Counted from the stretch's first letter, positions 1,044-24,790 are shown. The stretch: 41,472 nt of DNA from Halothiobacillaceae bacterium (GCA_006212015.1 SDAY01000006.1:1-41472), one strand, 5' to 3'. Notes: a model not told the origin generated them from the sequence alone. Numbers and translations are program-made.

Positions 1044-4591
<3,548 letters not shown>

Positions 4592-4595
<4 letters not shown>

Positions 4596-5821
4596 CATCC
4601 CCAGCCATCACGCCGGTGCTCATCGCGGAGGATGACGCCCCCACCCGCAAGCTGCTCGCCGCGCTCCTGCACAAGCTCGGCTTTTCCCCAATCGAAGTCC
4701 GTGATGGCCTCGAGGCCCTGGAGACGATGGAGACATCCGGCATCCACATCGTGATCAGCGACTGGGACATGCCCGGCATGGACGGGCCGACCCTCTGCCA
4801 GACCCTCCGTGAGCGCCACCCTGGGCGTTTCATCTACATCGTCATGCTGACAGGCCGCGAAGACGCTGGCGCGCACATGAGCGCCCTGGACGCCGGGGCG
4901 GATGACTTCATTCGCAAGCCCATCAGCACGGCCGAACTAAGGGCGAGGCTGCGGACCGCCCAGCGCATGCTGACGCTGCACAGCGATCTGGCCATCCGCA
5001 ACCAGAAGCTGAACATGGCCCATGCCTTCCTGAGCAAGGAGCTGGCCTCGGCCCAGAAGGTCCAGTTCGACCTGCTGCCGAAGCCCGCCTCCCTCGGCGC
5101 CGCCACCTTCGACTGGATACTCGACCCCTCCTGCTACATCGGGGGCGACACGTTCGACTACTTCATGGTCAACGACCGCCTGGCGGCGCTCTACATCCTC
5201 GACGTGTCCGGACATGGCGTCGCCGCGGCCATGCTGGCCTTCACCGCGCACACCCGCCTGATGTACACCCCCCAGCAGATTGCCGCCGTGGCGGAAAAGG
5301 GGGAGGGGATCGAGATCATCGTTCGCGAGGTGGTCACCGGCATCAACCGCCATTTCCTTTCGATGAAGGACACCGGTCACTACATGACCATGATCTTCGG
5401 CATCCTCGACACGGAGACCGGCCAGCTCTGTCTCGCCCAATCCGGACACCCGCCGCCCCTGCTCCTCGCGGACGCGGACACCATCGCCCAGCCGCTGGGG
5501 ACCGGCGGGCTGGCCATCGGCATGTTCGAGTTCGACCCCGGTGATGTCGAGGTTTCGAACCTGACCCTGCCCCACGGCAGCCGCTTGTTCCTCTATTCCG
5601 ACGGGGTCACCGAGTGCGAGTCCCCTGCGGGGGATCCGTACGGCCAGGATCGCCTGGGCGCGCGACTCGGCGCCCTCTCCCGCTTGTCGCTCCATGAGGC
5701 CCTCGCAAGCCTCAAGGACGACCTGCTGGCATGGCGGGGCAGCGACCTGCCCGAGGACGACGTGACCGTGATCGCCATGGAATTCGGAACCCCGGGGCCT
5801 TGCGCCCTTGACCGGGCATGA
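4592..5821 (+). CDS. Response regulator with PP2C (SpoIIE/RsbU-type) serine phosphatase output
   Basis: 409 residues. The N-terminal receiver (about 5-120) has acidic residues in IAEDDAPTRK, acceptor D57 in SDWDMPGMDG, and the conserved lysine in FIRKPIS. After a helical linker (about 125-165) comes a PP2C/SpoIIE phosphatase domain (about 170-400). Its metal-binding motifs are intact: GGDTFDY, DVSGHGVAAAM, SDGVTE and EDDVTV. This is the RsbU/HsbR-like class, in which phosphorylation of the receiver controls removal of phosphate from a STAS protein. The STAS gene lies 186 bases downstream. The start codon overlaps the stop of the kinase gene (ATGA), indicating translational coupling. The kinase and this protein are inferred to be a cognate pair because all catalytic residues are retained and the genes overlap. 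Confidence 0.95.
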
Positions 5822-5899: not shown

Positions 5900-6007
5900 G
5901 AAGACGGCGGGGTTGATCCGGGCCCGTCCGCCCATCGGTCAGGAGCCTCGCCATTCCTACGGCGGGCGGGCAGGCAGACCGGCCGTCCATACACAAGGGA
6001 AACGCAC

Positions 6008-6346
6008 ATGCACACTGAAATCAGCCAAGTTGATGGCATCAGCATCGTCCGCATTCAGGAAAAGCGCATTGACGCGGCGCGGGCCTCTGACTTCAGGGCG
6101 ATGTTCCAGGAGCTCATTCAAGCGGGTCACAGGCGCATCGCCCTGGACCTCAGCAAGGTTGAGTTCATGGATTCAAGCGGTCTTGGCGCGCTCGTGGGAG
6201 GGCTGAAGCTCATGGGCGACAAGGGTGATCTGGCCCTGTTTGGGGTGACCGGGCTTGTAGAGAGCCTGTTCCGCCTGACGCGCATGGACAAAATCTTCCC
6301 CATCCTGGGAAACGAAGCCGACACGCTCGATCGACTGCGTACCTGA
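6008..6346 (+). CDS. STAS-domain anti-sigma-factor antagonist (RsbV/SpoIIAA-like)
   Basis: 112 residues forming a single STAS domain. The hallmark EFMDSSGLGALVGG surrounds the phosphorylatable serine (S56 or S57), and the fold pattern RIALDLSKV / GDLALFGV is typical of RsbV and SpoIIAA. The ATG at 6008 is preceded by AAGGGA (5995-6000) at good spacing; an upstream in-frame start at 5858 would add a non-conserved tail and was not used. In this family the unphosphorylated protein binds the RsbW-type kinase and frees its partner; phosphorylation by that kinase inactivates it, and a PP2C phosphatase reverses this. Both partners are encoded next door (phosphatase upstream, kinase 75 bases downstream), so a complete partner-switching module is present. 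Confidence 0.93.
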   Translation: MHTEISQVDGISIVRIQEKRIDAARASDFRAMFQELIQAGHRRIALDLSKVEFMDSSGLGALVGGLKLMGDKGDLALFGVTGLVESLFRLTRMDKIFPILGNEADTLDRLRT

Positions 6347-6421: not shown

Positions 6422-6874
6422 ATGGACATGCCAAGGCATCATCTGGAACTCACCAGCCGACTCGAACATCTTGCGGGCGCCTCGGAAGCGTTGCGTGCGT
6501 TTTGCGCCAACCTGCCCATCCCCCCGTCCGATCTCGACAGGCTGGATCTCGCATTGACGGAAGCGCTCACCAATGTCATCGAGCATGCGTACAAGCTCGA
6601 AGAACACCATTCGATTCACCTCGACTTCCTCCGGGGAGAGCGCAACATCACCGTCGAGATTTCCGATGAAGGGCTCAGCCTTCCGCCGGAGATGCTGATA
6701 TCACCGCCGGTCGCGCGCGAGCTGGCCCGCGACAACCTCGATGCCCTCCCGGAGGGCGGCTGGGGGCTGATGCTCATTTTTGAGCTCTGCGACAACGTCG
6801 AATATCAAACCCATGGGGGGCGGAACAAGCTGCGGCTTCATGTCAATTTCACCCAGAACCCGAGGCCATCCTGA
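6422..6874 (+). CDS. RsbW-like serine kinase / anti-sigma factor (HATPase_c_2)
   Basis: 150 residues, the usual size for RsbW/SpoIIAB-type GHKL kinases. The N box is E47-x3-N51 (EALTNVIEHAYK); the G1 box is ISDEGLSL and the G2 box is GWGLMLI. The ribosome-binding site GGAGGT (6411-6416) lies 5 bases before the ATG at 6422. The predicted role is ATP-dependent phosphorylation of the STAS protein encoded just before it and sequestration of a target when the STAS protein is phosphorylated. No sigma factor gene is present in the window, so the target is unknown: it could be a distant sigma factor or a non-sigma effector, as known for some proteobacterial partner-switch kinases. The stop overlaps the start of the GH2 gene (TGATG at 6872-6876), which ties the regulator to the polysaccharide genes. 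Confidence 0.9.
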   Translation: MDMPRHHLELTSRLEHLAGASEALRAFCANLPIPPSDLDRLDLALTEALTNVIEHAYKLEEHHSIHLDFLRGERNITVEISDEGLSLPPEMLISPPVARELARDNLDALPEGGWGLMLIFELCDNVEYQTHGGRNKLRLHVNFTQNPRPS

Positions 6875-9117
6875 TGCGCGCTCTTCGGCTTGCGCTGTTG
6901 ATGCTGATCGTGGCGGCGCACAGCGGATGCGCCAGCCATTCCACTCAGCTTCAGGATGCGGAGCCCCGGACACACGCCCTGAACGGTACATGGAGCTTCC
7001 TGGCCGGCGAACTTCGTCCCGCCGCGCCAGCCGCGGTGGATGCGGAAACCGGCTGGCGCGACATCCAGGTGCCGGACAACTGGTACCGCCAGGGGCATGA
7101 AATGCATGGCCGGGTCTGGTATCGGCGCACGTTCACGCTCAATGCCAAGGACATGGACAGGCATATCCGACTGGTCTTCAACGCCGTCGATTATGCCGCC
7201 GATGCATGGCTCAACGGACACCACCTCGGCCACCACGAGGGCTATTTCCAGCCCTTCGACTTCGACATCTCACGCCATGTCCGCCAGGGCGAGAACACCT
7301 TGCATGTCCTTGTAGACAGTCCCATCGAAGACCCCCTGCACGCCTGGTCGCTGCGCAAGCGGCTCATCAAGGGCATTTACAGCCACCACGACACCCGCCC
7401 GGGCGGTGCGTGGTCTCCACGCGGGCAGGAAAGGAACACAGGGGGCATCTGGGCCCCTGTCACCCTGGAACTATCCGATGCAGCCGCCGTGCGCACGCTG
7501 CGCGTCACGCCCCGTTCGCAAGCGGGCGGCGCCTGGACGACCCATGTCGATGCGGCCATCGGCGGTGAGGCCGACGCCATCTCCGAGGTCGAGGTCCACA
7601 TCAGACCAGAAAACTTCGATGGCGCGCCCATCGTGCAAATCCAGCCAGTTTCGCTCCGGCGCGGGGAGGGCCTGAGCCTCGACATTCCCATCCATCAACC
7701 GAAGCCATGGTGGCCGCGCGAACATGGCGCACCCAACCTGTACCGCCTGAGCCTGATCCTGCGCGATGGCCAGCGCATCCTTGATCGCAAGGAGACCGTC
7801 TTCGGCTACAGGACCTTCACGGTCGATCCCGTCACCCAGGCCTGGTTTGTCAACGGCAGGCGGCTGTTCATCCGCGGCACCAACTACATCTCGACCCAGT
7901 GGCTCGCGGAAATGGATGCCGCGCGCTATGCGCAGGATCTCCGCATGATGACCGAGGCGCATGTCAATGCCGTTCGGGTCCATGCACATATCGAGGCCCC
8001 CGCCTTTTACGAGGCCTGCGACCGCGCCGGAATGCTGGTGCTCCAGGACTTCCCGCTGCAATGGGGCTACAGCGACAGCGCCGACTTCCTGGCTGAGGCG
8101 CGCTCGCAAGCCCGCGACATGGTCGAGCACCTCCAGAACCATCCGTCCATCGCTGTGTGGTCCATGCACAATGAACCGCCATGGGATGCGTCCTGGATGA
8201 AATGGAAATATCCCGACTATGCGCCGGACCAGAACAGGATCCTCGACGACCTGCTCGAGCGCGATGTGTCGAGACTGGATTCGACGCGCGTGACGCACAA
8301 GGTATCGGCCACCTACGAGCACCCATGGTTTGGCTGGTACTCGGGCGACTGGAAGGATTATGGCAAACCCGCCGTGACGCCATGGATCACCGAGTATGGC
8401 GCGCAGGCCCTGCCGGAACTGGCCTCGCTTCGCCGCATCTTTAACGAGGACGAGCTCTGGCCCGACAACGATCAGGACTGGTCGAAATGGTCCTACCACA
8501 ACTTCCAGCGGCATGAAACCTTTGACCTCGCCAAGGTTCCGGCGGGAAGCCATATCGGCGAGTTCATCGCCAACACCCAGCAATACCAGGCGCGCTTGAT
8601 CAAGTTCGCTGCGGAATCCTATCGAAGGCAACGGTATCAGCCTGTCAGCGCGATCTTCCAGTTCATGTTCGTCGAGGACTGGCCCTCGATCAACTGGGGG
8701 ACGGTGGACTACTGGCGCATCCCCAAACCCGGCTATGAGGCGCTTAAAATCGCCTATCAGCCGGTACTCCCGGGCATCGATGGATTGCGTGACGCCTACG
8801 CGGCAGGGGAGCGCCTGAGCCTGCGCCCGTGGGGCATCAACGACCTGTGGCAGGACATCAGGAATGCACGCTACCAGCTCGACCTGCGCGCCGGAGAGCG
8901 TGTCCTGGTCCAGCGCGAGTGGGCGCTTGATCCTTTGGCCGCAGACGCAAGTCACGAGCTCGGGCCGCTGGAGATCGACACTGCGGGGTTCCAGCCGGGC
9001 GACTATGTACTGCTCACCCGCATCGTTTCCGCGGATGGACTCACCCTGGGACATAACCGTTATCCATTCACCATCACCCCGTCCACGCAGGCCCGGACGC
9101 CCGTGGCGCCACGATGA
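6874..9117 (+). CDS. Glycoside hydrolase family 2 lipoprotein
   Basis: 747 residues. The N terminus is a signal sequence ending in a probable lipobox with C19 (SGCAS). The residue after Cys is Ala rather than Asp, which by the Lol rule favours the outer membrane; His at -3 of the lipobox is atypical. A jelly-roll sugar-binding domain (about 35-210; VWYRRTF, YAADAWLNGHHLGHHEGYF), an Ig-like domain and a TIM barrel follow. The catalytic acid/base is E434 in SMHNEPPW and the nucleophile is E507 in WITEYGAQAL, both as in GH2 beta-galactosidases, beta-glucuronidases and beta-mannosidases. Substrate specificity cannot be read from the sequence. It sits between the RsbW-like regulator and the GH9 gene in a polysaccharide operon, so it probably trims or remodels the polymer at the cell surface. 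Confidence 0.9.
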   Translation: MRALRLALLMLIVAAHSGCASHSTQLQDAEPRTHALNGTWSFLAGELRPAAPAAVDAETGWRDIQVPDNWYRQGHEMHGRVWYRRTFTLNAKDMDRHIRLVFNAVDYAADAWLNGHHLGHHEGYFQPFDFDISRHVRQGENTLHVLVDSPIEDPLHAWSLRKRLIKGIYSHHDTRPGGAWSPRGQERNTGGIWAPVTLELSDAAAVRTLRVTPRSQAGGAWTTHVDAAIGGEADAISEVEVHIRPENFDGAPIVQIQPVSLRRGEGLSLDIPIHQPKPWWPREHGAPNLYRLSLILRDGQRILDRKETVFGYRTFTVDPVTQAWFVNGRRLFIRGTNYISTQWLAEMDAARYAQDLRMMTEAHVNAVRVHAHIEAPAFYEACDRAGMLVLQDFPLQWGYSDSADFLAEARSQARDMVEHLQNHPSIAVWSMHNEPPWDASWMKWKYPDYAPDQNRILDDLLERDVSRLDSTRVTHKVSATYEHPWFGWYSGDWKDYGKPAVTPWITEYGAQALPELASLRRIFNEDELWPDNDQDWSKWSYHNFQRHETFDLAKVPAGSHIGEFIANTQQYQARLIKFAAESYRRQRYQPVSAIFQFMFVEDWPSINWGTVDYWRIPKPGYEALKIAYQPVLPGIDGLRDAYAAGERLSLRPWGINDLWQDIRNARYQLDLRAGERVLVQREWALDPLAADASHELGPLEIDTAGFQPGDYVLLTRIVSADGLTLGHNRYPFTITPSTQARTPVAPR

Positions 9118-9272
9118 CAAGGAGCCAGGCCGGGAGCGCGCCACCTCAAGGCCCGGAAGGTCGCGCGGTGCGCCCCAAGCGGGACTTCATATCGGCCACG
9201 GGCTATCCCCGTGGTCCTTCCATAGACGCGGAGTGCATGCCTTGCCAGCGACACATCGAAGACATCAAGTGA
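9114..9272 (+). CDS. Candidate 52-residue small protein with a CxxC motif
   Basis: A short frame fills the gap between the GH2 and GH9 genes. Its ATG (9114) overlaps the GH2 stop as ATGA, and its TGA (9270-9272) overlaps the GTG start of GH9 as GTGA. The product starts MTRSQAGSAPPQ and carries ECMPCQRH near the C terminus. About 70% of third codon positions are G or C, broadly like its neighbours. Double start/stop coupling is the pattern of a translated gene, but chance cannot be excluded in a GC-rich gap of about 150 bases. It may be a real small protein, or a leader frame whose translation delivers ribosomes to the weakly initiated GH9 gene. No family is recognised. Confidence 0.35.
   Translation: MTRSQAGSAPPQGPEGRAVRPKRDFISATGYPRGPSIDAECMPCQRHIEDIK
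9196..9214 (+). other. Intra-operon hairpin before the GH9 gene
   Basis: Perfect 7-bp stem CCACGGG (9196-9202) / CCCGTGG (9208-9214) with a 5-base loop, located about 55 bases before the GH9 start and inside the candidate small gene. It could be an RNA processing or stabilising element. No T-tract follows, so a terminator is unlikely. Confidence 0.3.
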
Positions 9273-10996
9273 GGCCGCAGCTCCTAGCCTGGCTCATGAT
9301 GATATGCGGCGGCCTTGCCGGCCACTCCGCGCAGGCCGACGAATCCGTCCCTCCGCCATCTCCCCATGTTGGCGGCATCATGGTGAATCAGGCCGGGTAC
9401 ATGAACGGCCTGCCCAAGACTGCCCTGCTGTTGAACAGCGATGATGCGCCGGTCCTGCTCAGGCATGCGGACACCAACAAGGTTGCTGAACTGATCGTCC
9501 CCGCGCCCCCCCGCATCGTCGACGGGATGAGCATTCGCGAAGTCTCCTTCGGCGCCCTCAGGACGCACGGACGCTATCGCCTGACCCAGGGCGCGCTCCA
9601 TTCCCCCGCATTCGAAATAGGGCCATGGCCCTATGCCGGGGTGTCGAACCTGCTGATGCGCGCGTACTATCTGCAACGCTGCGGCGTCGCCATCCATGAC
9701 CAAAAGACCGGACTGAAGCACGCGGCATGTCACCTTGGGGACGGGGTCATCGCGCATGCCGATGCGATCAATGCCAAGGGCGCGCCCTGGCCCGCCATGG
9801 GCGGCTGGCACGACGCCGGGGACTACGGAAAGTACATTGCGCCGGCTGCCGTCACCGTTGCTCGACTGCTTGATATCTACGAAAGGCGTCCGGATCGCTA
9901 TCCGGATGGCCAGCTTGACATCCCCGAGTCCGGCAACGGCAAGCCCGACCTGCTCGACGAGGTGCGCTACGAGCTGGACTGGATGCTGCGGATGCAGCGC
10001 CAGGATGGCGCGGTCTACCGCAAACTGTCCGGCGCCCGCTGGCCCGAGGAGGCCGGGCCGGAGCGCGATCATCAGCCACGCCTCGTCTATGGCATTTCCA
10101 GCCCCGAAACGGGCAAGTTCGCAGCCGTCATGGCGCAAGCCGCCCGCGTATACAGAAAAACGGACCGCGATCTTTCCGAGCGGTGCCTCATGGCCGCGCG
10201 CAAGGCCTGGCACTGGCTGGAGCAAAATCCGGACATGCGCGTCGACCACCGGCCGGGCGACGACGCCGGGTCGGGCGGCTACATGGCGTCCGACATCGAT
10301 GGAGAGGCCGCGCTCCATACGGACAGGGATGACCGCCTGGCGGCCGCCGGCGAACTCTTTGTCACCACCGGTGAAATCCCTTTCCTGGAGGTCGTGCAGG
10401 CCCTCGCCCCCTCCTCGCCCTACACGCTGTTCGAGTGGAAAGACCACTCGGCGCTCGTCCTCTGGACCCTGCTTCAGCATCCGGACAAACGCCTGGACGA
10501 GCTGCGTCCGATCATCAAGTCGCGCCTTCTTGAACGGGCCTCCGCCATACTCCAGCGCGTGCACAACCACCCCTTCAGGCTCGCCAATACCCGGTTCATT
10601 TGGGGTTCGAACAAAATGACTGCGGAGGAGGGCATCACCTTGCTGCATGCCTACACCCTGACCGGCGACAAGGTCTATCGCGACGCTGCGGCGGATCAAG
10701 TACATTACCTGCTGGGCCGCAACGCCTTCGGGATCAGTTTTGTCAGCGGGGTGGGCGAACGGCCCGTGCGGCGGGTGAACCATATCCTGAGCCGCAATAC
10801 CGGCATGTACATCCCGGGGCTGCTGGTCGGCGGTCCGAACGATAGCGCCCAGGATGGCGTCGCCCCCAAGGGCCTGGGCATGTTGAGTTATTTGGACCAC
10901 GACCACTCCTACGCCACCAACGAATTCGCCATTGATTACAACGCGGCGCTGATCGGCCTCATCGAGCTGCTTGGCTCCACACTGAACGGAGACTGA
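9269..10996 (+). CDS. Secreted glycoside hydrolase family 9 endoglucanase-like enzyme
   Basis: 575 residues from GTG at 9269, which gives a good signal peptide (MRPQLLAWLMMICGGLAGHSAQA, cut before DES). The frame is open further upstream, but that extension overlaps the GH2 gene and reads as low-complexity arginine-rich sequence. Domains: an N-terminal Ig-like CelD_N domain (about 35-115; IMVNQAGYMNGLPKTALLL), then the (alpha/alpha)6 GH9 barrel. The catalytic aspartates are in GGWHDAGDYGKYI (D182, D185), and the catalytic acid is E552 in TNEFAIDYNAAL, matching the GH9 signature. GH9 enzymes cleave beta-1,4-glucans. In bacterial cellulose loci a periplasmic endoglucanase (BcsZ, GH8) assists export, and this protein may fill the same role for the adjacent BcsA-like synthase. 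The stop is 3 bases before the synthase start. Confidence 0.92.
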   Translation: MRPQLLAWLMMICGGLAGHSAQADESVPPPSPHVGGIMVNQAGYMNGLPKTALLLNSDDAPVLLRHADTNKVAELIVPAPPRIVDGMSIREVSFGALRTHGRYRLTQGALHSPAFEIGPWPYAGVSNLLMRAYYLQRCGVAIHDQKTGLKHAACHLGDGVIAHADAINAKGAPWPAMGGWHDAGDYGKYIAPAAVTVARLLDIYERRPDRYPDGQLDIPESGNGKPDLLDEVRYELDWMLRMQRQDGAVYRKLSGARWPEEAGPERDHQPRLVYGISSPETGKFAAVMAQAARVYRKTDRDLSERCLMAARKAWHWLEQNPDMRVDHRPGDDAGSGGYMASDIDGEAALHTDRDDRLAAAGELFVTTGEIPFLEVVQALAPSSPYTLFEWKDHSALVLWTLLQHPDKRLDELRPIIKSRLLERASAILQRVHNHPFRLANTRFIWGSNKMTAEEGITLLHAYTLTGDKVYRDAAADQVHYLLGRNAFGISFVSGVGERPVRRVNHILSRNTGMYIPGLLVGGPNDSAQDGVAPKGLGMLSYLDHDHSYATNEFAIDYNAALIGLIELLGSTLNGD

Positions 10997-10999
10997 TCC

Positions 11000-12835
11000 A
11001 TGGGCTTCTACTTTGACCGCTTCGAGGACAGGAAACCCGAACCGCCACTACCCTATTCGCCCTGGGTCGAGGCCATCTGGCAGTTTCTTCTGGTCATCGC
11101 GCTCGTGATCGGCGGCTGGTACATCGCGTGGCGGTGGACCAGCTCGCTCAACATGGAGGCGCTCTGGTACGCCATCCCTCTCGTCGTGGCGGAGACGGGG
11201 GCCTACATCGGCCTGCTGCTCTTCGGCTTCAACCTGTGGAAGGTGCGGGACTACCCCATGCAGCCCGCGCCGTCGGACATCCTGCAATGCCTCGAAACCT
11301 CGGAGGGGCACCTTTCCCGTCCCGTGAAGGTCGACATTTTCATTGCCACCTATAGCGAAGACGAAGAGCTCGTGCGTCTCAGCATTCGGGATGCGAAGAA
11401 GGTCAGCTATCCGGGCGACATCACCCTCAGGATTCATGTGCTGGATGACGGCCGTCGCGAGGCGATGCGCAAGGTCTGCGACGAGGAGGGCGTGAACTAC
11501 ATCAGCCGCGGCAACAATGTCGGCTTCAAGGCGGGCAACCTGCGCAATGCCATGGAGCAGACGGATGGCGACTTCATGGCCATTTGCGATGCGGATACCC
11601 GGCTATTTCCCTCCTTTCTGGAAAACACCCTGGGGTACTTCCGTGACCCCCAGGTCGCCTGGGTGCAAACGCCGCAGTGGTTCTATGACATTCCGGAGGG
11701 CACGCCCCTGCCGAAGGCCATGGAGCGCTGGCTGGGCGCCCCGGGACGCTGGCTTGGGCGCATGGCGGAGGCCCTCATGGGCCCCATACGGGTCGGCCAG
11801 GACCCCTTCGTCAATGATCCGAAGATGTTCTACGACATCATCATGCGCCGCCGCAATCCCTACAACGCCTCCTTCTGCTGCGGGGCGGGCTCCATTCACC
11901 GCCGCGAGGCCGTCATGGAGGCCGCGCTCAAGGGCTGGGTCGAGCAGGTGGACCATGAGTCGCACCGGCGCGCGGAGGAATTCAAGCGCCTGACTCAAGA
12001 GGACACCATAGACGCAAGCGCCACGAACATGCTTCGCCAGCACACCATGCTGGAAGAAGAGTTCACGCCATACAAATTCCACGTCTCGGAAGACATCTAC
12101 ACGTCCATCGTGCTGCACTCCGACCTCGACAGAAAATGGAAGTCGGTGATGCACCCGCAGGTGGAATCCAAGATGCTCTCCCCGCAGGATCTTCTGGCGT
12201 GGTCCATCCAGCGCTTCAAGTACGCAGGGGGAACGCTCGACATCACGCTGCATGACAACCCGCTGACCCGCAAGGGCCTGACCACATCACAGCGCGTTCT
12301 TTACGGGGCCACGATATGGTCTTACCTGGGCGGCATCTGGAACGTCCTGTTCCTGATCGCTCCGCTCATCTACCTGTTCACCGCCATCGCCCCCGTCAGC
12401 GCCTACTCGATGGATTTTTACGTCCACATCCTGCCCTTCCTGTTCGCCACCGAACTGGCCTTCATGGCCGCCTACTGGGGGCTGGCGAGCTACCAGGCCA
12501 AGGCGAACTACATTTCGTTCTTCCCCATCAACCTGCGCGCGCTGTGGACCGTTCTTCGCGGCGAAAAGATCAAATTCCCGGTCACCCCGAAGGACCGCCA
12601 GGAGGGTACCTTCATTCGCCTGGTCTGGGCCCAGCTCGCGGTCATCGCGCTGACCGTCGCCGGGCTGATATTCGCCTGGATCAGCTATCTGTTCTTCTAC
12701 AGTCACCACAACCTTGACGGGCTGCTGGTCAATACCTTCTGGGGCATCAACAACATATGGGCGCTGATGGGCATTGTCCTTGCCGCTTTCTGGAAACCCG
12801 AACAAGACACCGAACCCTCTGGAGCATCCACATGA
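11000..12835 (+). CDS. Membrane glycosyltransferase family 2, BcsA/cellulose-synthase-like
   Basis: 611 residues. Two membrane segments (about 26-48 and 55-78) precede a cytosolic GT-A domain (about 105-420), followed by about four more (near 440-470, 475-500, 545-570, 580-600). The processive GT2 signature is present: D149/D150 (LDDGRRE), D197 and D199 (CDADTR), QTPQWFYD, FCCGAGSIHRR, and the base D365 in SED. The acceptor-site QxxRW motif appears as QRFKY (404-408), a conservative but unusual change. BcsA proteins end in a PilZ domain that binds c-di-GMP; here the chain ends soon after the last membrane helix, so direct c-di-GMP activation by that route is absent. The polymer is probably a beta-linked glucan or related chain, given the adjacent GH9, but the sugar is not proven. 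GGAG lies just before the ATG at 11000. The stop overlaps the next start (ATGA). Confidence 0.93.
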   Translation: MGFYFDRFEDRKPEPPLPYSPWVEAIWQFLLVIALVIGGWYIAWRWTSSLNMEALWYAIPLVVAETGAYIGLLLFGFNLWKVRDYPMQPAPSDILQCLETSEGHLSRPVKVDIFIATYSEDEELVRLSIRDAKKVSYPGDITLRIHVLDDGRREAMRKVCDEEGVNYISRGNNVGFKAGNLRNAMEQTDGDFMAICDADTRLFPSFLENTLGYFRDPQVAWVQTPQWFYDIPEGTPLPKAMERWLGAPGRWLGRMAEALMGPIRVGQDPFVNDPKMFYDIIMRRRNPYNASFCCGAGSIHRREAVMEAALKGWVEQVDHESHRRAEEFKRLTQEDTIDASATNMLRQHTMLEEEFTPYKFHVSEDIYTSIVLHSDLDRKWKSVMHPQVESKMLSPQDLLAWSIQRFKYAGGTLDITLHDNPLTRKGLTTSQRVLYGATIWSYLGGIWNVLFLIAPLIYLFTAIAPVSAYSMDFYVHILPFLFATELAFMAAYWGLASYQAKANYISFFPINLRALWTVLRGEKIKFPVTPKDRQEGTFIRLVWAQLAVIALTVAGLIFAWISYLFFYSHHNLDGLLVNTFWGINNIWALMGIVLAAFWKPEQDTEPSGAST

Positions 12836-14160
12836 GCATGAAGGAAAACCTGATCCGCGCTCGCAGTCACATCGTCTTCCTGGCCGGGCTCACCGCCGCC
12901 TTCGGCCTGGTGATCACCCTTGATCGGCTGGAGCTTGAGGAAAAGACGGCAGACTATCTTCAGGTCAAGAAGACTCATGATATTCCCCTGGCCAAGCCCA
13001 CGCCGTTGACCGAGCAGGAAATGAGTTGGGCGCGGACTGCATGGCTCTATTTCCAGAACAACACTCAAGCCGCAACCGGCCTGGTCAACTCGGTGGATGG
13101 CTACCCTTCCACCACGCTATGGGACACATCCTCCTACCTGCTCGCCACGATCGCGGCCGAGCGACTCGGCATCATTCCCCGGAAGGAGTTCGACCAGAGG
13201 ATCACGCAGTCGCTCCGGTCGCTGGCGCGGGTACAGCTGTTCGACGGCAAGCTGCCCAACAAGGCCTATGACACCCGCACCCTGGCCATGGTGGACTACA
13301 ACAACCAGCCCACGGACAAGGGGATCGGCTGGTCGGCCATCGACATTGGCCGCCTGCTGTCGCCGCTGAACATCCTGATCTGGAACTATCCATCCCACAC
13401 CGACGAGGTCAAGAGCGTCGTTGCCGCATGGGATTTCAACGCCCTGCTCAAGGACGGCGCGCTCCAGGGCGCCGCCCTGGACGGAAACAGTGTCATTCAA
13501 CTCCTGCAGGAGGGGCGGCTGGGCTATGAAGAATATGCAGCCAAATCGCTCAGCCTTCTTGGGCTGGATGTCTCCCGAGCCATGCTCTACGGCGATCACC
13601 TCCAGTACATCGACATCTACGGGGTCAATGTCCCCACGGACAGTCGCGTGCCCGAGCGCTACCACGCGCACAACTATGTCGTCAGCGAGCCTTACATTCT
13701 TGACGGCATCGAATACGGCTGGGACAACACCTCGAAAGAGTTCGCCTTCCGTGTATTCCGCGCGCAGGAAGAGCGCTTCGAGCGCACCGGCCAGCTGACC
13801 GCCGTCTCGGAGGACAACATCGATCAGGCGCCATACTTCGTCTACAACACCGTCTTCACCTCGGGCAAGTCATGGAACACCATCACGGAAAAGGGCGAGG
13901 ACGCCTCGGCCTTCCGCAGCATCAGCACCAAGGCGGCGATGGGGTGGCACATGCTCTACCGCACCAGCTACACCGAAAAGCTGATGCACGCCGTCGAAAA
14001 GCTCCATGACCCGAAGAAGGGCTGGTACTCCGGCCTTTATGAGCAGACGGGCAAGCCGAACACCGCCATCACCGCGAATACCAATGGCATCATTCTCGAG
14101 AGCCTTTGCTACCGTAAATTCGGCCCCATGGTACGGCCTTACATAGAGATGAAGGATTGA
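12832..14160 (+). CDS. DUF3131 protein, membrane-anchored, polysaccharide-associated (first paralogue)
   Basis: 442 residues from ATG at 12832, which overlaps the synthase stop and is preceded by GGAG at 12821-12824. A single N-terminal membrane segment (about 13-31) is followed by a large domain that should face the periplasm. Conserved blocks shared with the paralogue at 14683: WLYFQNNTQAATGLVN, YPSTTLWDTSSYLLA, PNKAYDTRTLAMVDYNN, LQEGRLGYEEYAAK, AVSEDNIDQAPYFVYNT and AITANTNGIILESL. This matches the DUF3131 family, which has no established biochemical function. The helix-rich, Trp/Tyr/Asp-rich pattern recalls (alpha/alpha)-barrel carbohydrate-active proteins, so a role in handling or modifying the nascent glycan is inferred from context only. 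Confidence 0.88.
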   Translation: MSMKENLIRARSHIVFLAGLTAAFGLVITLDRLELEEKTADYLQVKKTHDIPLAKPTPLTEQEMSWARTAWLYFQNNTQAATGLVNSVDGYPSTTLWDTSSYLLATIAAERLGIIPRKEFDQRITQSLRSLARVQLFDGKLPNKAYDTRTLAMVDYNNQPTDKGIGWSAIDIGRLLSPLNILIWNYPSHTDEVKSVVAAWDFNALLKDGALQGAALDGNSVIQLLQEGRLGYEEYAAKSLSLLGLDVSRAMLYGDHLQYIDIYGVNVPTDSRVPERYHAHNYVVSEPYILDGIEYGWDNTSKEFAFRVFRAQEERFERTGQLTAVSEDNIDQAPYFVYNTVFTSGKSWNTITEKGEDASAFRSISTKAAMGWHMLYRTSYTEKLMHAVEKLHDPKKGWYSGLYEQTGKPNTAITANTNGIILESLCYRKFGPMVRPYIEMKD

Positions 14161-14164
14161 TGCC

Positions 14165-14686
14165 ATGTCCCTGCTATTCCGGGCCATGACCGTCGCTGTT
14201 TTCATCATGACCAGCTTTATCGTGTTCAAGATCCAGTCCATGCACGCCGCTCTCGATACGGGGCTGGCGGACATACGCAACGACATGGCAAGCATCAGGA
14301 CGACGAACGCCGATCTGGCAAAAAACCTCGAACAATCAGGCAGCGAGGTCGCCGCCTTCCGCAAGGAAGTCAACGATCGCGAGAGGGCGCGTGAAAAGAA
14401 GGCGGAAATGCTTGCCAGCCTTCGAAAGGCTCGCGCGCGGATTGCCGAGGCCGACGCGCTCCGGGCAGCCGGGAAGTTCGAAGAGGCGGCTGCCCGACTC
14501 ATCGCCACGAAGGATCCGCTCTGGATGGCCGGCGACTACTACGTCGACCAGCAGGGCGATCTTCGCGGCTTGATGGAGCCCATCGACATCACCTCCGCGA
14601 AATGGATGGGCGGGGACAAGGCCGCCTCGGCCGAGGCCGTCCTTGCAAGAATCGACAACATTATTTCCCGGGCGGGGGCTGAATGA
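14165..14686 (+). CDS. Small bitopic membrane protein with periplasmic coiled coil, unknown function
   Basis: 173 residues. The N-terminal membrane segment is at about 7-25 (FRAMTVAVFIMTSFIVFKI). A long heptad-like, charged coiled coil follows (about 30-115; ADIRNDMASIRTTNADLAKNL, then EVNDRERAREKKAEM). The C-terminal region (about 115-173) contains DPLWMAGDYYVDQQGDLRG. No family is recognised. It lies between two DUF3131 genes, its start is 4 bases after the first and its stop overlaps the start of the second (ATGA at 14683). By position it could be a scaffold linking the two DUF3131 proteins to the synthase. Confidence 0.8.
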   Translation: MSLLFRAMTVAVFIMTSFIVFKIQSMHAALDTGLADIRNDMASIRTTNADLAKNLEQSGSEVAAFRKEVNDRERAREKKAEMLASLRKARARIAEADALRAAGKFEEAAARLIATKDPLWMAGDYYVDQQGDLRGLMEPIDITSAKWMGGDKAASAEAVLARIDNIISRAGAE

Positions 14687-16143
14687 TGGACGAGAAACAG
14701 GCACAACGACGCGCCCTGATACTGGGGGGGCTTACCCTCGCGCTGGGAGGGGGAGCCGCCTCCCTTATCATCATGAGCAGCGACCAGGGCGGGGCGAAGG
14801 ATGCGTCCCGGACAACGAGCGAACAGAAGGCTGCGTGCGCCGTCTACATGGACAAGCCAGCCTGCCTGAATCCGCCTAGGCCGCTGTGCGACGAGGACCT
14901 TCGGATCGCGCGCATCGCCTGGCGCTATTTCGAGAACAACTATCAGCCCGCCACGGGCCTGTACAACGCGGCGGACAAGTATCCGTCCACGACCATGTGG
15001 GACAGCGCATCCGCGCTGGCGGCGACCATCGCGGCGCGCGAACTGGGATTCATCGACCAGAAGACCTTTGATGACCGCATCATTGCCATGCTGACCACGC
15101 TGAACACCATGGAGCTGTTCAACGGCGAGGCGCCGAACAAGGTGTACAACACCATGACCGGCAAGATGGTGGACTACAACAACAACCCCACGCCCGATGG
15201 CATCGGCGTTTCCGCGCTCGACCTGGCGCGCATGATCGGATGGCTGAACATCCTGTCGTGCATGCATGCCAAGCATGAGCTTGCCGCGCGTGCGGCCATT
15301 CTCCGCTGGAACTATTGTCGACTGATCAAGGACGGTCAGATGTTCGGCCTGATGCTCGACCCCGTGACCAAGAAGATCCAGGTTCTGCAAGAGGGGCGAC
15401 TTGGCTATGAGCAGTACGCGGGCAAGATCTTCCAACGGCTCGGGTTCGACCAGCGCATTGCCGCGCACTACGACAACAAGTTTGCGACCAAGACGGATAT
15501 TTACGGGGTTCCCATCGCCTATGACAGCCGCGACCCCCGCCAGCTTGGCGCCTACAACTACGTCGTGACCGAGTCCTATGTCATGGACGCGATGGAGAAT
15601 GGCGTCGACGACGGCAACCGCGCCCTGATCGACAACATCTACGAGGTGCAGAAGCGCCGCTGGAAGCGTACGGGTCAAGTCACGGCGGTATCCGAGGACA
15701 ATATCGACCGCGATCCCTACTTCGTCTACAACACCATCTTCGTGGCGGGGACCGCATGGAGCACCATCACCGATACGGGCGTGGACATGGACAAGCTGCG
15801 CTCGGTTTCCGTCAAGGCCGCCATGTCGATGGCCTACCTCAAGCCGAACGACCCGTATTCGGGCGTACTCTACGATTTCGTCAAGAGCGCGCATGACCCG
15901 GAACGAGGCTGGTATTCGGGCATCTACGAGAAGGGCCTCGGTTACAACAAGGCGATCACCGCCAACACCAATGGCGTGATCCTCACCAGCATCCTTCACA
16001 AGATGTACGGCGAGCTGACGCCGCGCTGCGAGCGCTGCAAACTTGGTTTCGAGATCGACGAGGGCGCGCTTGCCGACCCGAAAAACCAGGGCAAGTGCCT
16101 GCCGGGCCAGCCCGTCTGCACGCCTTGCGCATCGCCCCAGTAG
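14683..16143 (+). CDS. DUF3131 protein, membrane-anchored, with cysteine-rich ends (second paralogue)
   Basis: 486 residues. A short cytosolic lead and one membrane segment (about 11-31) precede a periplasmic DUF3131 domain homologous to that of the gene at 12832: WRYFENNYQPATGLYN, YPSTTMWDSASALAA, PNKVYNTMTGKMVDYNNN, LQEGRLGYEQYAGK, AVSEDNIDRDPYFVYNT, AITANTNGVILTSI. Unlike the first copy it has cysteines at both ends: C52, C61 and C69 before the domain, and C449, C452, C472, C479 and C482 in a C-terminal tail with two CxxC pairs. In the periplasm these could form disulfides or a metal site. The start overlaps the preceding stop. The two copies probably arose by duplication and then diverged. 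Biochemical function is unknown. Confidence 0.88.
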   Translation: MMDEKQAQRRALILGGLTLALGGGAASLIIMSSDQGGAKDASRTTSEQKAACAVYMDKPACLNPPRPLCDEDLRIARIAWRYFENNYQPATGLYNAADKYPSTTMWDSASALAATIAARELGFIDQKTFDDRIIAMLTTLNTMELFNGEAPNKVYNTMTGKMVDYNNNPTPDGIGVSALDLARMIGWLNILSCMHAKHELAARAAILRWNYCRLIKDGQMFGLMLDPVTKKIQVLQEGRLGYEQYAGKIFQRLGFDQRIAAHYDNKFATKTDIYGVPIAYDSRDPRQLGAYNYVVTESYVMDAMENGVDDGNRALIDNIYEVQKRRWKRTGQVTAVSEDNIDRDPYFVYNTIFVAGTAWSTITDTGVDMDKLRSVSVKAAMSMAYLKPNDPYSGVLYDFVKSAHDPERGWYSGIYEKGLGYNKAITANTNGVILTSILHKMYGELTPRCERCKLGFEIDEGALADPKNQGKCLPGQPVCTPCASPQ

Positions 16144-16215
16144 GCTCGCCCCGAGGATGGCGGAGCGCGTGACCTGCCTACCGCACGGCGTGGCCCGCGC
16201 GACCGGCCGTTCATC

Positions 16216-18243
16216 GTGTTGAGCGCCTTCATCCAGCGCCCCCTCATCCCACTGGCGCTTGTGTTCGGACTGGGCCTTGCCTCGCCTTCGGCGGCAGGTC
16301 CATGGGCGACAACGACCTCCACGCTGTTGAAGCAACTGGAAACGCTGCATTGCTCCATCGAGTCGAACGAGGCGCTCCAGGCGCTCGAGGCGCTCTGCAA
16401 TCAACCTCTATCCTCCCTCGGTCTGCCGGCGGACAGGCGAGGCGAAGACCACGCCGAACTGCACGCCGGTTCGCTCGACATCATGCTCAGGGTGATGGAC
16501 CAAACCGCCGAGCGCTTCCCCGAACTGGGCGGGGAGGTCGAGCGCTGCGTCCTGTCATGGGATTTCTGCGCCCTGCGTCGCGAGCGCGATTTCATCGATG
16601 TGCGCCAGGATGGCGCGGCGCGCTCGACCTGCCCGCCCGCCGGACCGTATCCCGCGCAAGGCGTCGGACTCAGGCGCTGGGGGTTTGACAGGAAAGATCC
16701 GCCGGACCGGCGCGTTCCGCGCCTGTTGCTCAACTCCGGCCTGGGACACGCGGAGCATACCCTCTTGTTACACCGTATCCACCGCCTGCAGTGCTTTCCG
16801 CACCCGCGGACCGGCCTGCTGCCCGACGAGGAGGCCCGGGATACGCCTTACGGCCCCAACCGCCATGCCACCGAGCGGCTCGACTGGACGGGGTGCGAGA
16901 CAACCTATCCATTCGGCTGGTCGCCCCGCTGCGAGCTCGACGCCGGGTATCGCGCGGGTTTCGCGACCGGGTATCGTGGCGGCTTCACGGCGGGTCTCAA
17001 GAAGGGGCAGGCCGAGGCCATCGCCCGCCTCAGGCGCAAATATGATGCACGCAGGCAGGAAGGCATGCGACAGGGGCGCGAGCATGGACTCATGGAGGGG
17101 CGGCGTGGCCTGGCTTCAACCCTGTCCGCGGACCCGGGCGGCATGGATGAGGCTGCGATTCTTGCCTCCATGGCCCCACCCCAGGAACCCGGCATCATGG
17201 GCGCGGACATGAAATCCATCCAGGCGATGATGGCGCGCGCCTGGAACCGCGAGGCCTTCGACCAGGCTTTCGGACAAGGCAGGCACGAGGGCCGGCGCGC
17301 AGGCGAAGTCGAAGGATTCATGGCTGGAATGAACGACACGCTCGCCGCTCGACTGGAGCAGGTGGGCGAGGCGGGCTTCAAGGAGGGGGTTCGCGCAGGC
17401 TACGCGCAGGCCTGGGCGGCGGGCCGGCAGATCGCCATGCAGGAGCGACAGGAACAGACGCCCCCTCCGCCTCGACCGCCCGAGCATCATCCGGCGCCCG
17501 CGCCCCAGCCCCCCCCCGTCGTTCCGCCGATGGCCCAGGCGCCGACGGAGTCGCCCGCGGAACAGGTCCCGACGGTCAAGGCGACGCCCATGGCACCGCC
17601 CGTCCAAGCCTCCGCGGCGGCGCCATCGGGCCCCGTCACGCCGCCACCGGGACCGCATGGCCTGTCGGGCAACCTGTTCCACTCCTGGAAGCTCGCGGAT
17701 GGCGAGCCCACCCTGGGCGCCAACATGCTCTGGGAACCCGCGTCTTACTGGTTCGTGCGGGCTGGCGCGAACTTGGACTATCGGGACGAGAACGATGCAC
17801 TGAGCTACAGCTGGGGTATCGGCTATGACGATTGGCACCCGGGCACATGGTCGTTTCAGCTGAACAACTGGGGGCCGATCCTGCCGGGCGAGGGCCTCAA
17901 GCCTGAAACTGCGGTCTTCAGCATCGGCTACAAACTGGAACACGAGCTTCTGGCAGGCAACCATATTGCCGCAAGTGTGGGGCTGGATATCCCGATGCAG
18001 GGCGAGAAGACCCTCGGCACCACCTGGCAGTGGTCGCCCATGCCGTCCTGGTTTGTACGCGCCGGGCTAAGCGTGAAGGAAGACGATCCCTCGCGGGTCT
18101 ACTGGAGTTACGGTTTCGGCCGCTGGGACTGGAAGGCATTCACCTGGACGCTGCAATACAACAACTGGGGACCGAACCCCGCCTTCACCCCGAACATCAA
18201 GCAGAACGGAGCGGTCATGCTGGGCTGGAGTTGGGCCTATTAG
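16216..18243 (+). CDS. Secreted composite protein with a C-terminal outer-membrane beta-barrel, unknown function
   Basis: 675 residues from GTG at 16216 (TTG at 16219 is an alternative; no clear Shine-Dalgarno). The signal peptide is MLSAFIQRPLIPLALVFGLGLASPSAAG. Residues about 28-240 form a cysteine-containing globular part. Residues about 241-410 have glycine at every fourth position in stretches (AGYRAGFATGYRGGFTAG; GRHEGRRAGEVEGFMAG), suggesting tightly packed helices. Residues about 415-475 are a Pro/Ala-rich linker. Residues about 482-675 are alternating aromatic/polar strands with two similar units (WFVRAG...NNWGP at about 511-560 and 611-660), ending in GWSWAY, whose terminal aromatic is the usual Bam recognition signal. 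It resembles neither BcsC nor PgaA (no TPR array). As the last gene of the polysaccharide operon it may be the outer-membrane exit or an anchor. No family recognised. Confidence 0.8.
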   Translation: MLSAFIQRPLIPLALVFGLGLASPSAAGPWATTTSTLLKQLETLHCSIESNEALQALEALCNQPLSSLGLPADRRGEDHAELHAGSLDIMLRVMDQTAERFPELGGEVERCVLSWDFCALRRERDFIDVRQDGAARSTCPPAGPYPAQGVGLRRWGFDRKDPPDRRVPRLLLNSGLGHAEHTLLLHRIHRLQCFPHPRTGLLPDEEARDTPYGPNRHATERLDWTGCETTYPFGWSPRCELDAGYRAGFATGYRGGFTAGLKKGQAEAIARLRRKYDARRQEGMRQGREHGLMEGRRGLASTLSADPGGMDEAAILASMAPPQEPGIMGADMKSIQAMMARAWNREAFDQAFGQGRHEGRRAGEVEGFMAGMNDTLAARLEQVGEAGFKEGVRAGYAQAWAAGRQIAMQERQEQTPPPPRPPEHHPAPAPQPPPVVPPMAQAPTESPAEQVPTVKATPMAPPVQASAAAPSGPVTPPPGPHGLSGNLFHSWKLADGEPTLGANMLWEPASYWFVRAGANLDYRDENDALSYSWGIGYDDWHPGTWSFQLNNWGPILPGEGLKPETAVFSIGYKLEHELLAGNHIAASVGLDIPMQGEKTLGTTWQWSPMPSWFVRAGLSVKEDDPSRVYWSYGFGRWDWKAFTWTLQYNNWGPNPAFTPNIKQNGAVMLGWSWAY

Positions 18244-21787: not shown

Positions 21788-22510
21788 TCAGGATCGCGCG
21801 CCGAAGATGGCCGTGCCGACCCGCACCAGGGTCGCGCCTTCCATGACGGCGGCCTCCAGGTCGTCCGACATGCCCATCGACAGGGTGTCCAGCGGCAGCC
21901 CCTCGCCGCGCAACTGCTCGAACAGCTCGCGCACGCGGCGGAAGCTGTCGCGCTGCACGGCGGGGTCGTCCGATGGCCTGGGAATGGCCATCAGCCCGCG
22001 CAGGCGCAGGGCCGGCAGGGCGGCGACGGCATGGGCCAGCTCGGCAAGCTCCTCGGGCAGGGCGCCGGACTTGCTGTCCTCGCGGTCGATGTTGACCTGG
22101 ATGCAGACATTCAAGGGCGGACGGCCTGCGGGCCGCTGCGCGCTCAGGCGCTCGGCCGTGCGCAGACGAAAGACGCTATGCACCCAGTCGAAGGACTCCG
22201 CAATGGCGCGCGTCTTGTTGGACTGGATCGGCCCGATGAAATGCCACTCCAGCGGCAGGTCGGCCAGCGCGGCCTGCTTGATCAGCGCCTCCTGGACATA
22301 GCTTTCGCCGAACGCCCGCTGGCCGCAGCCATGCAGCTCTTTCATGCGTTCGGCCGCAACCGTCTTGCTGACCGCGACCAGGCGGGCCGCATCGGCCGCG
22401 CGACCGGCCTGGCGCAAGGCCTCGTCGAGCCGCGCCTGGACCCGGCGAAGCCCCGCGCATGCATGGATCTCCGGTTGCGCCGGATCGTGGGTCGAAGTAC
22501 CTTCGCTCAT
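21788..22510 (-). CDS. yggS: YggS/PROSC family pyridoxal-phosphate homeostasis protein
   Basis: 240 residues from ATG at 22508-22510 (MSEGTSTHDPAQ). The PLP lysine is K49 in LVAVSKTVAAE. Other family blocks are FGESYVQEALIK, LEWHFIGPIQSNKTRAIAESFDWVHSV, VCIQVNIDREDSKSG, LRLRGLMAIPRP and LSMGMSDDLEAAVMEGATLVRVGTAIFG. The protein binds PLP without enzymatic turnover and balances B6 vitamers and amino/keto acid pools. The frame remains open far upstream, but that part is antisense to pilT. It is divergent from pilT with only 25 bases between the two starts. Confidence 0.96.
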   Translation of the reverse strand: MSEGTSTHDPAQPEIHACAGLRRVQARLDEALRQAGRAADAARLVAVSKTVAAERMKELHGCGQRAFGESYVQEALIKQAALADLPLEWHFIGPIQSNKTRAIAESFDWVHSVFRLRTAERLSAQRPAGRPPLNVCIQVNIDREDSKSGALPEELAELAHAVAALPALRLRGLMAIPRPSDDPAVQRDSFRRVRELFEQLRGEGLPLDTLSMGMSDDLEAAVMEGATLVRVGTAIFGARS

Positions 22511-22535
22511 ATTTTTCGCATCATCAGGGTATGCC

Positions 22536-23570
22536 ATGGATATTGAAACCTTACTGGCCTTTTCCGTGAAGAACGGCGCCTCGGACCTGCACCTGTCCGC
22601 CGGCGAGCCCCCGATGATCCGGGTGGACGGCGACATCCGTCGCATCAACGCTCCGGCGCTGCAGCACAAGGACGTGCACAGCATGGTGTACGACATCATG
22701 AACGACAAGCAGCGCAAGGAGTACGAGGAAAACCTCGAGACCGACTTCTCGTTCGAGATCCCGGGCCTGGCCCGTTTCCGTGTCAACGCCTTCGTGCAGA
22801 ACCGCGGCGCGGGCGCGGTGTTCCGCACCATTCCCAGCAAGGTGCTGACCCTGGAGGAGCTGGGCGCGCCGAAGATCTTCAAGGAGATCGCCGACCAGCC
22901 GCGCGGCATCGTGCTGGTGACCGGCCCGACCGGCTCGGGCAAGTCGACCACCCTGGCGGCGATGGTCAACCACATCAACGAGCAGGAATACGCCCACATC
23001 CTCACCATCGAGGACCCGATCGAATTCGTCCACCAGAGCAAGAAGTCGCTGATCAACCAGCGCGAGGTGCACCGCGACACCCACAGCTTCAACAACGCCC
23101 TGCGCTCCGCCCTGCGCGAGGACCCGGACGTGATCCTGGTGGGCGAGATGCGCGACCTGGAGACCATCCGCCTGGCGCTGACCGGCGCGGAGACCGGCCA
23201 CCTCGTGTTCGGCACCCTGCACACCTCCAGCGCGGCCAAGACCATCGACCGTATCGTCGACGTGTTCCCGGCGGCGGAGAAGGAGATGGTGCGCGCCATG
23301 CTGTCCGAGTCCCTGCGCGCGGTCATCTCCCAGACCCTGCTGAAGAAGGTCGGCGGCGGCCGCGTGGCGGCGCACGAGATCATGATCGGCACCCCGGCGA
23401 TCCGCAACCTGATCCGCGAGGGCAAGATCGCGCAGATGTACTCCGCCATCCAGACCGGCCAGCAGCACGGCATGCAGACCCTCGACCAGAACCTCAAGGA
23501 GCTGGTCGCGCGCAACACCATCGCCCGCGATGCCGCCCGTTCGGCCGCCATGAACAAGGCCGATTTCTGA
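22536..23570 (+). CDS. pilT: Type IV pilus retraction ATPase PilT
   Basis: 344 residues, standard for PilT. Motifs in order: N-terminal PAS-like domain (SDLHLSAGEPPMIRVDGDI), Walker A GPTGSGKSTT with K136, Asp box ILTIEDPIEFVH, Walker B DVILVGEMRDLET, His box TGHLVFGTLHT, and the retraction motif AIRNLIREGK. PilT is a hexameric cytosolic motor that depolymerises type IVa pili for twitching motility and DNA uptake. ATG at 22536 preceded by CAGGGT. It is divergent from yggS, as in Pseudomonas. An upstream in-frame extension overlapping yggS was rejected because PilT proteins begin with MDI. Confidence 0.97.
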   Translation: MDIETLLAFSVKNGASDLHLSAGEPPMIRVDGDIRRINAPALQHKDVHSMVYDIMNDKQRKEYEENLETDFSFEIPGLARFRVNAFVQNRGAGAVFRTIPSKVLTLEELGAPKIFKEIADQPRGIVLVTGPTGSGKSTTLAAMVNHINEQEYAHILTIEDPIEFVHQSKKSLINQREVHRDTHSFNNALRSALREDPDVILVGEMRDLETIRLALTGAETGHLVFGTLHTSSAAKTIDRIVDVFPAAEKEMVRAMLSESLRAVISQTLLKKVGGGRVAAHEIMIGTPAIRNLIREGKIAQMYSAIQTGQQHGMQTLDQNLKELVARNTIARDAARSAAMNKADF

Positions 23571-23626: not shown

Positions 23627-24790
23627 ATGGATCGCAACCAGGCCATCGGCTACATCCACGACCTGCTGCGGCGGATGGTGGAGAACGGCGCCTCCGACCT
23701 GTTCATCACCGCCGGCGCGCCGCCCAGTGTCAAGCGCAACGGCCTGGTGCAACCGCTCACGCCGCAGATGCTCTCGCCCTCGCACTGCGAGCTGCTGACC
23801 CGTTCGATCATGAACGACAAGCAGACGGCGGAATTCGAGGAAAAGCACGAACTCAACTTCGCCATCGCCCTGCCCGGCGTGGCGCGCTTCCGCATCAACG
23901 CCTTCACCCAGCGCGGCTCGGTCGGCATGGTGCTGCGCATCATCCGCACCGACATCCCGAACTTCGAGGAGCTGCAGCTGCCGCCGGTGCTGCGCGAACT
24001 CGCGATGACCAAGCGCGGGCTGGTGATCTTCGTCGGCGCCACCAGCTCCGGCAAGTCCACCTCGCTCGCCGCCATGGTGGACTACCGCAACCAGAACTCG
24101 CAGGGGCACATCATCACCATCGAGGACCCGATCGAGTTCGTGCATCAGCACAAGAAGTGCCTGATCACCCAGCGCGAGGTCGGGGTGGACACCGAGAGCT
24201 ACGAGGTGGCGCTGAAGAACACCCTGCGCCAGGCCCCGGACGTGATCCTGATCGGCGAGGTGCGCGAGCGCGAGACCATGGACCACGCCATCGCCTTCGC
24301 CGAGACCGGCCACCTCTGCCTCTGCACCCTGCACGCCAACAACACCAACCAGGCGCTGGACCGCATCATCAACTTCTTCCCCGAGGAACGACGCGCCCAG
24401 CTGCTGATGGACCTCTCCCTCAACCTCAAGGCCATCATTTCCCAGCGCCTGTGCCGCAAGGAGGACGGCAAGGGCCGGGCGCCGGCGGTCGAGGTGTTGA
24501 TCAACACCCCGCTCATGTCCGACCTGATCTTCAAGGGCAAGGTCCACGACATGAAGGACCTGATCAAGCGCTCACGCGAGCACGGCATGCAGACCTTCGA
24601 CCAGCACCTGTTCGACCTGTACGAGGAAGGCAAGATCAACTACGAGGAGGCCCTGCGCAACGCCGACTCGGTCAACGAATTGCGCCTCAATATCAAGCTG
24701 AACGGCAAACGCGACCGCAGCCATGACCTGCTTTCGAAAACGGACAGCATGGAACTGCACGAGCATGTCGACGATGGCATGGGAGGCTGA
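23627..24790 (+). CDS. pilU: PilT-dependent retraction accessory ATPase PilU
   Basis: 387 residues, longer at the C terminus than PilT as expected for PilU. It has SDLFITAGAPPSVKRNG at the N terminus, Walker A GATSSGKSTS with K143, Asp box IITIEDPIEFVHQHKK, Walker B DVILIGEVRERET and His box GHLCLCTLHANNTNQALDRI. The PilT AIRNLIRE motif is replaced by LMSDLIFKGKVHDM, typical of PilU. PilU assists PilT under load and normally does not retract pili alone. GAGGT (23613-23617) precedes the ATG at 23627. It follows pilT in the conserved order and is followed 11 bases later by a third related ATPase. Confidence 0.95.
   Translation: MDRNQAIGYIHDLLRRMVENGASDLFITAGAPPSVKRNGLVQPLTPQMLSPSHCELLTRSIMNDKQTAEFEEKHELNFAIALPGVARFRINAFTQRGSVGMVLRIIRTDIPNFEELQLPPVLRELAMTKRGLVIFVGATSSGKSTSLAAMVDYRNQNSQGHIITIEDPIEFVHQHKKCLITQREVGVDTESYEVALKNTLRQAPDVILIGEVRERETMDHAIAFAETGHLCLCTLHANNTNQALDRIINFFPEERRAQLLMDLSLNLKAIISQRLCRKEDGKGRAPAVEVLINTPLMSDLIFKGKVHDMKDLIKRSREHGMQTFDQHLFDLYEEGKINYEEALRNADSVNELRLNIKLNGKRDRSHDLLSKTDSMELHEHVDDGMGG

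Follow-up and report, generated by a model that had tools for sequence, protein, structure and literature searches.

An operon from a Halothiobacillaceae bacterium joining a BcsA-like synthase, two DUF3131 proteins and a barrel-like protein in a candidate beta-glucan pathway

The window analysed here is the whole 41,472-nucleotide stretch SDAY01000006.1:1-41472 of a Halothiobacillaceae bacterium (GCA_006212015.1), and the system in question is an operon with a predicted role in polysaccharide synthesis. Pfam and NCBIfam matches, together with gene spacing, revealed that eleven plus-strand genes form one tight operon, running from a hybrid sensor kinase (1044-4595) to a barrel-like protein (16216-18243). 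The initial annotation had described the interval 11000-18243 as a polysaccharide export set, and this gene set proved real: it comprises a BcsA-like GT2 synthase without PilZ, recognised by profile matches and motifs (11000-12835), the DUF3131 protein Da (12832-14160), whose start overlaps the GT2 end by 4 bp, a coiled-coil protein that is anchored in the membrane and has a small, conserved C-terminal portion (14165-14686, from transmembrane prediction and locus comparison), a second DUF3131 protein, Db (14683-16143), and the barrel-like protein, which carries a signal peptide and a C-terminal beta-rich domain. The GH2 and GH9 hydrolases counted in the same set do belong to this operon, although both lie upstream of that interval. 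The GH2 family hydrolase (6874-9117, Pfam) has a probable lipoprotein signal, LMLIVAAHSGC, and the GH9 endoglucanase, with a CelD_N domain (Pfam), was placed at approximately 9233-10996, its start being uncertain, as a GTG at 9233 or at 9269 yields a signal peptide.

The GT2 protein resembles BcsA, with PDB matches of about 1e-36, and preserves the DDG, DAD, FCCGAG and SED motifs. The Q(Q/R)xRW motif is replaced by QRFKYAGG, a form common to nearly all proteobacterial orthologues, in contrast with the QRLRW of the two cyanobacterial ones. Pfam searches found no PilZ domain in the window GT2, whereas one is present in the other BcsA of the same genome. Moreover, full-length open reading frames of proteobacterial orthologues from such loci scored 595-913 bits against the window GT2, compared with 91 bits for the BcsA of its own genome.

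No match to BcsB, BcsC, PgaA or other known porins was obtained among the locus proteins with Pfam and NCBIfam, in agreement with the initial annotation as far as the locus is concerned. The genome as a whole, however, harbors a complete bcs operon on contig C145, with BcsA+PilZ, BcsB, GH8 and BcsC in a row. A second BcsC-like gene lies apart from it, on the 4.6-kb contig C98 (L008:1406-4605, minus strand), beside GH8 and an SGNH-like protein. Among 15 further genomes that carry DUF3131 loci of the window's kind, a BcsB match was missing in 12 and a BCSC_C match in 14. Since most locus-bearing genomes are devoid of them, BcsB and BcsC are not required by the locus as a general rule, and the proposal that copies encoded elsewhere serve this synthase was rejected as such a rule. 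The PgaA barrel (PF21197) had no match in the own genome or in these 15 genomes, and its lack in the former ruled out PgaA as the pore.

Both DUF3131 proteins are members of their family, with PF11329 matches of 514 bits for Da and 438 bits for Db (cut-off 20.3) covering model positions 2-366 and 1-366, respectively. Each has an N-terminal membrane anchor followed by the DUF3131 domain, placed at 13015-14136 in Da and at 14890-16023 in Db. A profile built from 28 DUF3131 domains of these loci and searched against PDB chains matched cyclic β-1,2-glucan synthase (CGS) chains, namely the GH189 cyclisation domain of TiCGS (8wy1, E=7e-6) and 8rf9/8rf0 (7e-5). Similarly, HH comparison with CGS-type proteins gave E=2e-12 over about 120 residues, and in relatives of CGS size, as well as in shorter ones, weak Pfam DUF3131 matches accompany a Glycoamylase domain. 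The AlphaFold2 (AF2) model of the Da domain reached a pTM of 0.86, and its top PDB matches in Foldseek were β-1,2-glucanases and transferases of families GH192, GH144, GH194, GH189 and GH162, together with putative glucoamylases, with E values down to 3e-8 and TM-scores on the query of 0.56-0.70, figures that refer to a predicted model rather than a solved structure. GH144, GH162, GH189 and GH192-194 constitute the SGL clan (PMC12102758, PMC10834661), in which conserved Glu, Tyr and Phe residues are represented by E239/Y367/F286 of XcSGL (PMC12102758). DUF3131 has conserved Glu columns, among them E225 and E266 in the numbering of the Da domain; their residue mapping to the SGL and CGS sites is unreliable beyond residue ~120, and nine acidic positions are conserved in both window copies. 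By profile similarity and modelling, the DUF3131 proteins are thus placed in the β-1,2-glucanase (SGL) clan, with a predicted (alpha/alpha)6 fold.

Phylogenetic analysis resolved Da and Db into two separate groups, with support values of 85/98 and 95/91 and with Alpha- and Gammaproteobacteria represented in both, a topology according to which their divergence is ancient. Some of the acids have been lost from the extra DUF3131 copies of Vibrio, Pantoea, Salmonella and Paracoccus, which, judging from these losses, may be non-catalytic. Because they combine a predicted β-1,2-glucanase-clan fold with conserved acids, the window proteins are best read as enzymes instead of conduit components, probably periplasmic, inner-membrane-anchored and glucan-processing. 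In the own genome, a third and unlinked protein on contig C157 (L009:5406-7430, minus strand), beside an ABC ATPase, combines a Glycoamylase domain with a weak match to DUF3131 and was likened to a stand-alone CGS cyclisation domain.

The barrel-like protein is composed of an N-terminal part (16216-17620) with glycine-rich FliH-like repeats (GYRAGFATGYRGGFTAGL) and a proline-rich linker, and of a conserved two-repeat domain at 17623-18240. Homologues of this C-terminal stretch of ~200 residues occur in the loci of Pantoea, Salmonella, Vibrio, Rhodobacterales and others, and the window protein was recovered at E=6e-6 by a profile built without it. Across the loci read, 15 homologues were counted, each of them in a GT2/DUF3131 locus. 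In a sample of 398 genomes, the domain occurred in 12, every one of which belongs to the 20 genomes that match DUF3131 strongly (hypergeometric 4.5e-18, phylogeny ignored). It had no match among PDB sequences and represents a new family, restricted to DUF3131-bearing genomes in this sample and in the loci read. Alignment of one half of the domain with the other gave E=1.6e-27, whereas a reversed control gave 0.06, revealing a two-fold repeat; the hydrophobicity alternation of the domain exceeded all 500 shuffles, the N-terminus of the protein is signal-like, and most family members, the window protein included, end in an aromatic residue. These sequence features suggest a putative 12-strand outer-membrane beta-barrel. 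The barrel proposed in the initial annotation hence gained the repeat and the alternating pattern in its favour, on a sequence basis.

The order GT2-DUF3131-coiled coil-DUF3131-barrel was identical in four loci (L069, L071, L072 and L073) from one family of the same phylum and another class, L073 also presenting a GH2 gene upstream. Equivalents of the coiled-coil protein were recognisable in these four, and this protein is confined to a subset of loci and missing from most. Carriers of the locus include Klebsiella, Salmonella, Pantoea, Vibrio and Rhodobacterales, and also cyanobacteria, in which the barrel was not in the stretches read. None of four other members of the window's genus carried the locus and relatives of it are located on plasmids; therefore, the locus moves horizontally. 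Sister loci share the partner switch and add OpgC or an acyltransferase, as well as GH16, GH3 or GH2. OpgC or acyltransferase-3 adjoins GT2 in them, with OpgC in the Pantoea, Salmonella and Paracoccus loci; Pfam found no OpgC in the window locus. In the Paracoccus plasmid locus, a protein with TPR and a PgaA-like barrel (L025:17503-19626, minus strand) stands in place of the two-repeat barrel, a hint that at least there the product crosses the outer membrane. One record with the locus, titled Mycobacterium sp. KBS0706 (L011, NZ_VCCH02000117.1), has a locus resembling those of Alphaproteobacteria, in a genome with BcsB and three MdoG matches, and is probably mislabelled.

Upstream of the hydrolases, the operon opens with four regulatory genes. 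The hybrid sensor histidine kinase contains dCache_3, PAS, HisKA, HATPase, two receivers and Hpt (Pfam), and overlaps by 4 bp an RsbU-like protein that joins a response regulator to a SpoIIE/PP2C phosphatase (4592-5821, Pfam). They are followed by a STAS anti-anti-sigma-type switch protein (5906-6346, Pfam and NCBIfam) and an RsbW-like anti-sigma-type kinase (6422-6874, Pfam). The intergenic gaps along the operon, from 5′ to 3′, are -4, 84, 75, -1, 82, 3, -4, 4, -4 and 72 bases, figures that rest on the chosen start codons, with GH9 taken from 9200 for this purpose in view of its uncertain true start. Directly upstream of the hybrid kinase, a PhnD-like phosphonate-binding protein (138-1037) may act as a ligand sensor for the operon. 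Farther along the window, translations indicated three consecutive PilT/PilU-like ATPase genes (22344-23570, 23627-24790 and 24802-25950).

We consider it somewhat more probable than its contrary that a dedicated and self-contained beta-glucan pathway is encoded by the operon. In this pathway, the GT2 would use a nucleotide sugar to build a glycan and extrude it into the periplasm, where the inner-membrane-anchored Da and Db, assisted by the coiled-coil protein, would trim, cut, size or transglycosylate the emerging glucan. The two-repeat barrel protein would be the outer-membrane component that releases the processed product or holds it at the surface, the GH2 lipoprotein would act at the surface, and the secreted GH9 would trim the product. 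The sensor kinase and the SpoIIE/STAS/RsbW partner switch would control the activity or the transcription of the pathway. Catalysis, linkage, outer-membrane passage and regulatory wiring are what we infer in this scheme. Concerning linkage, a β-1,2 or OPG-like glucan (OPG, osmoregulated periplasmic glucan) is suggested by OpgC and the β-1,2-glucanase fold, a β-1,4 one by GH9; OpgC or the acyltransferase in sister loci would point to an OPG-like acylated product. A more specific version is unlikely as a whole: a secreted-glucan machine of a new kind in which a BcsA-like synthase and a pair of SGL-clan transglycosylases yield a size-controlled or cyclic glucan, succinylated in some species, which exits via the two-repeat outer-membrane barrel, itself of a hitherto unknown type, under partner-switch control.

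Several observations weigh against this pathway. No DUF3131 protein has a known activity, the family has no assigned function, and the papers retrieved mention it only in passing. The sequence alignment of DUF3131 with CGS holds only over the first ~120 residues, past which the global HH mapping of the CGS catalytic glutamates is unreliable. Moreover, the GT2-adjacent DUF3131 copy in Pantoea and Salmonella lost several acids, so that catalysis may not be universal there. Regarding the barrel, single-sequence AF2 prediction of the domain gave a pLDDT of 33 and no usable fold, and no barrel was found in the stretch read of four GT2+DUF3131 loci (L010, L070, L074 and L075). Finally, a Wza-like Poly_export protein is encoded elsewhere in every genome tested, a finding of little weight for Wza-type export.

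The most serious competitor, possible though on the doubtful side, is that an OPG-like glucan stays in the periplasm and needs no pore: the DUF3131 pair would size or cyclise it, OpgC would succinylate it in sister loci, and the barrel would either anchor the complex or be an unrelated uptake or sensing porin. The likeness of the DUF3131 fold to the CGS cyclisation domain and to beta-1,2-glucanases fits such a product, as do OpgC in the Pantoea, Salmonella and Paracoccus loci and the lack of a linked BcsC or PgaA in the window. However, the locus has a conserved barrel-like protein that carries a signal peptide and gives way in Paracoccus to a TPR and PgaA-barrel protein, two MdoG/OpgG homologues are already encoded in the own genome, and GH9 together with a GH2 lipoprotein suggests a product that reaches the surface. 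The acyl-transferring genes of sister loci would also suit an OPG-like periplasmic product, and export across the outer membrane is a prediction of the proposed pathway.

The initial annotation had offered another view, in which the DUF3131 proteins and the coiled coil form a structural, envelope-spanning conduit replacing BcsB and BcsC. The conserved gene order, the membrane anchors that Da, Db and the coiled-coil protein all carry, and the degenerate DUF3131 copies of Enterobacterales and Vibrio, which suggest that some are non-catalytic, are in line with it. Nevertheless, it seems quite improbable when both window copies retain all the conserved acids and a predicted enzyme fold, most likely as processing enzymes, and the coiled-coil protein is missing from most loci. 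What persists of that idea is a conserved module found in genomes without BcsB and BcsC, in the same order in another class, with a barrel-like domain that, in the genomes sampled, is confined to those bearing DUF3131. An ordinary cellulose synthase served by BcsB and BcsC of the C145 operon would agree with the complete bcs operon of this genome and with GH9 being a beta-1,4-glucanase family. It is nonetheless highly improbable: that operon already includes a PilZ-bearing BcsA, BcsB and BcsC are usually missing from locus-bearing genomes, and the proteobacterial GT2s of these loci are mutually close and far from BcsA.

In the context of known systems, the operon that we read as a beta-glucan pathway is a variant of the synthase-dependent glucan systems. 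It shares with Bcs (BcsABC/BcsZ) a BcsA-like GT2 bearing the motifs DDG, DxD, SED and Q-R-x, and a glucanase encoded in the same operon; in contrast, it lacks PilZ, BcsB, BcsC and GH8, has QRFKY instead of QxxRW, and includes two DUF3131 proteins, a new barrel-like family and partner-switch genes. With CGS (GT84-GH189-GH94) and the SGL clan it has in common the homology of DUF3131 to the GH189 cyclisation domain over ~120 residues and the (alpha/alpha)6 fold of the predicted model, whereas its synthase and processing proteins are separate, the GT family is another one, and there is no GH94 part. The OPG system (OpgH/OpgG/OpgC) resembles it in joining a GT2 synthase to periplasmic glucan-acting proteins, which are predicted in the window, and in the OpgC of sister loci; the window operon differs in being without OpgG/OpgD (GH186, MdoG) and OpgC and in having a barrel-like protein, both MdoG/OpgG copies of the genome being unlinked to it.

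Comparable gene sets had been listed before. The available portions of two genome surveys report a cellulose-synthase-like protein, OpgC, a hybrid kinase and anti-sigma parts, accompanied by a beta-galactosidase in SGI3 of Salmonella Mississippi (PMC3401170) and by DUF3131 in block 3b of Klebsiella pneumoniae (PMC12974863). The likeness to the window locus is one of the kind of gene list rather than a gene-by-gene comparison, and in those portions these survey listings do not describe the function, the DUF3131 fold or the barrel. In K. pneumoniae, such a gene set belongs to the blocks that are associated with the principal axis of population structure (PMC12974863). The locus is widespread, previously listed but not characterised, and the placement of DUF3131 in the β-1,2-glucanase clan, together with its association with a single synthase and a single new family of barrel-like proteins, provides a testable function for it. 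If the proposed pathway is true, these bacteria would have a route for glucan synthesis and delivery that dispenses with BcsB and BcsC.

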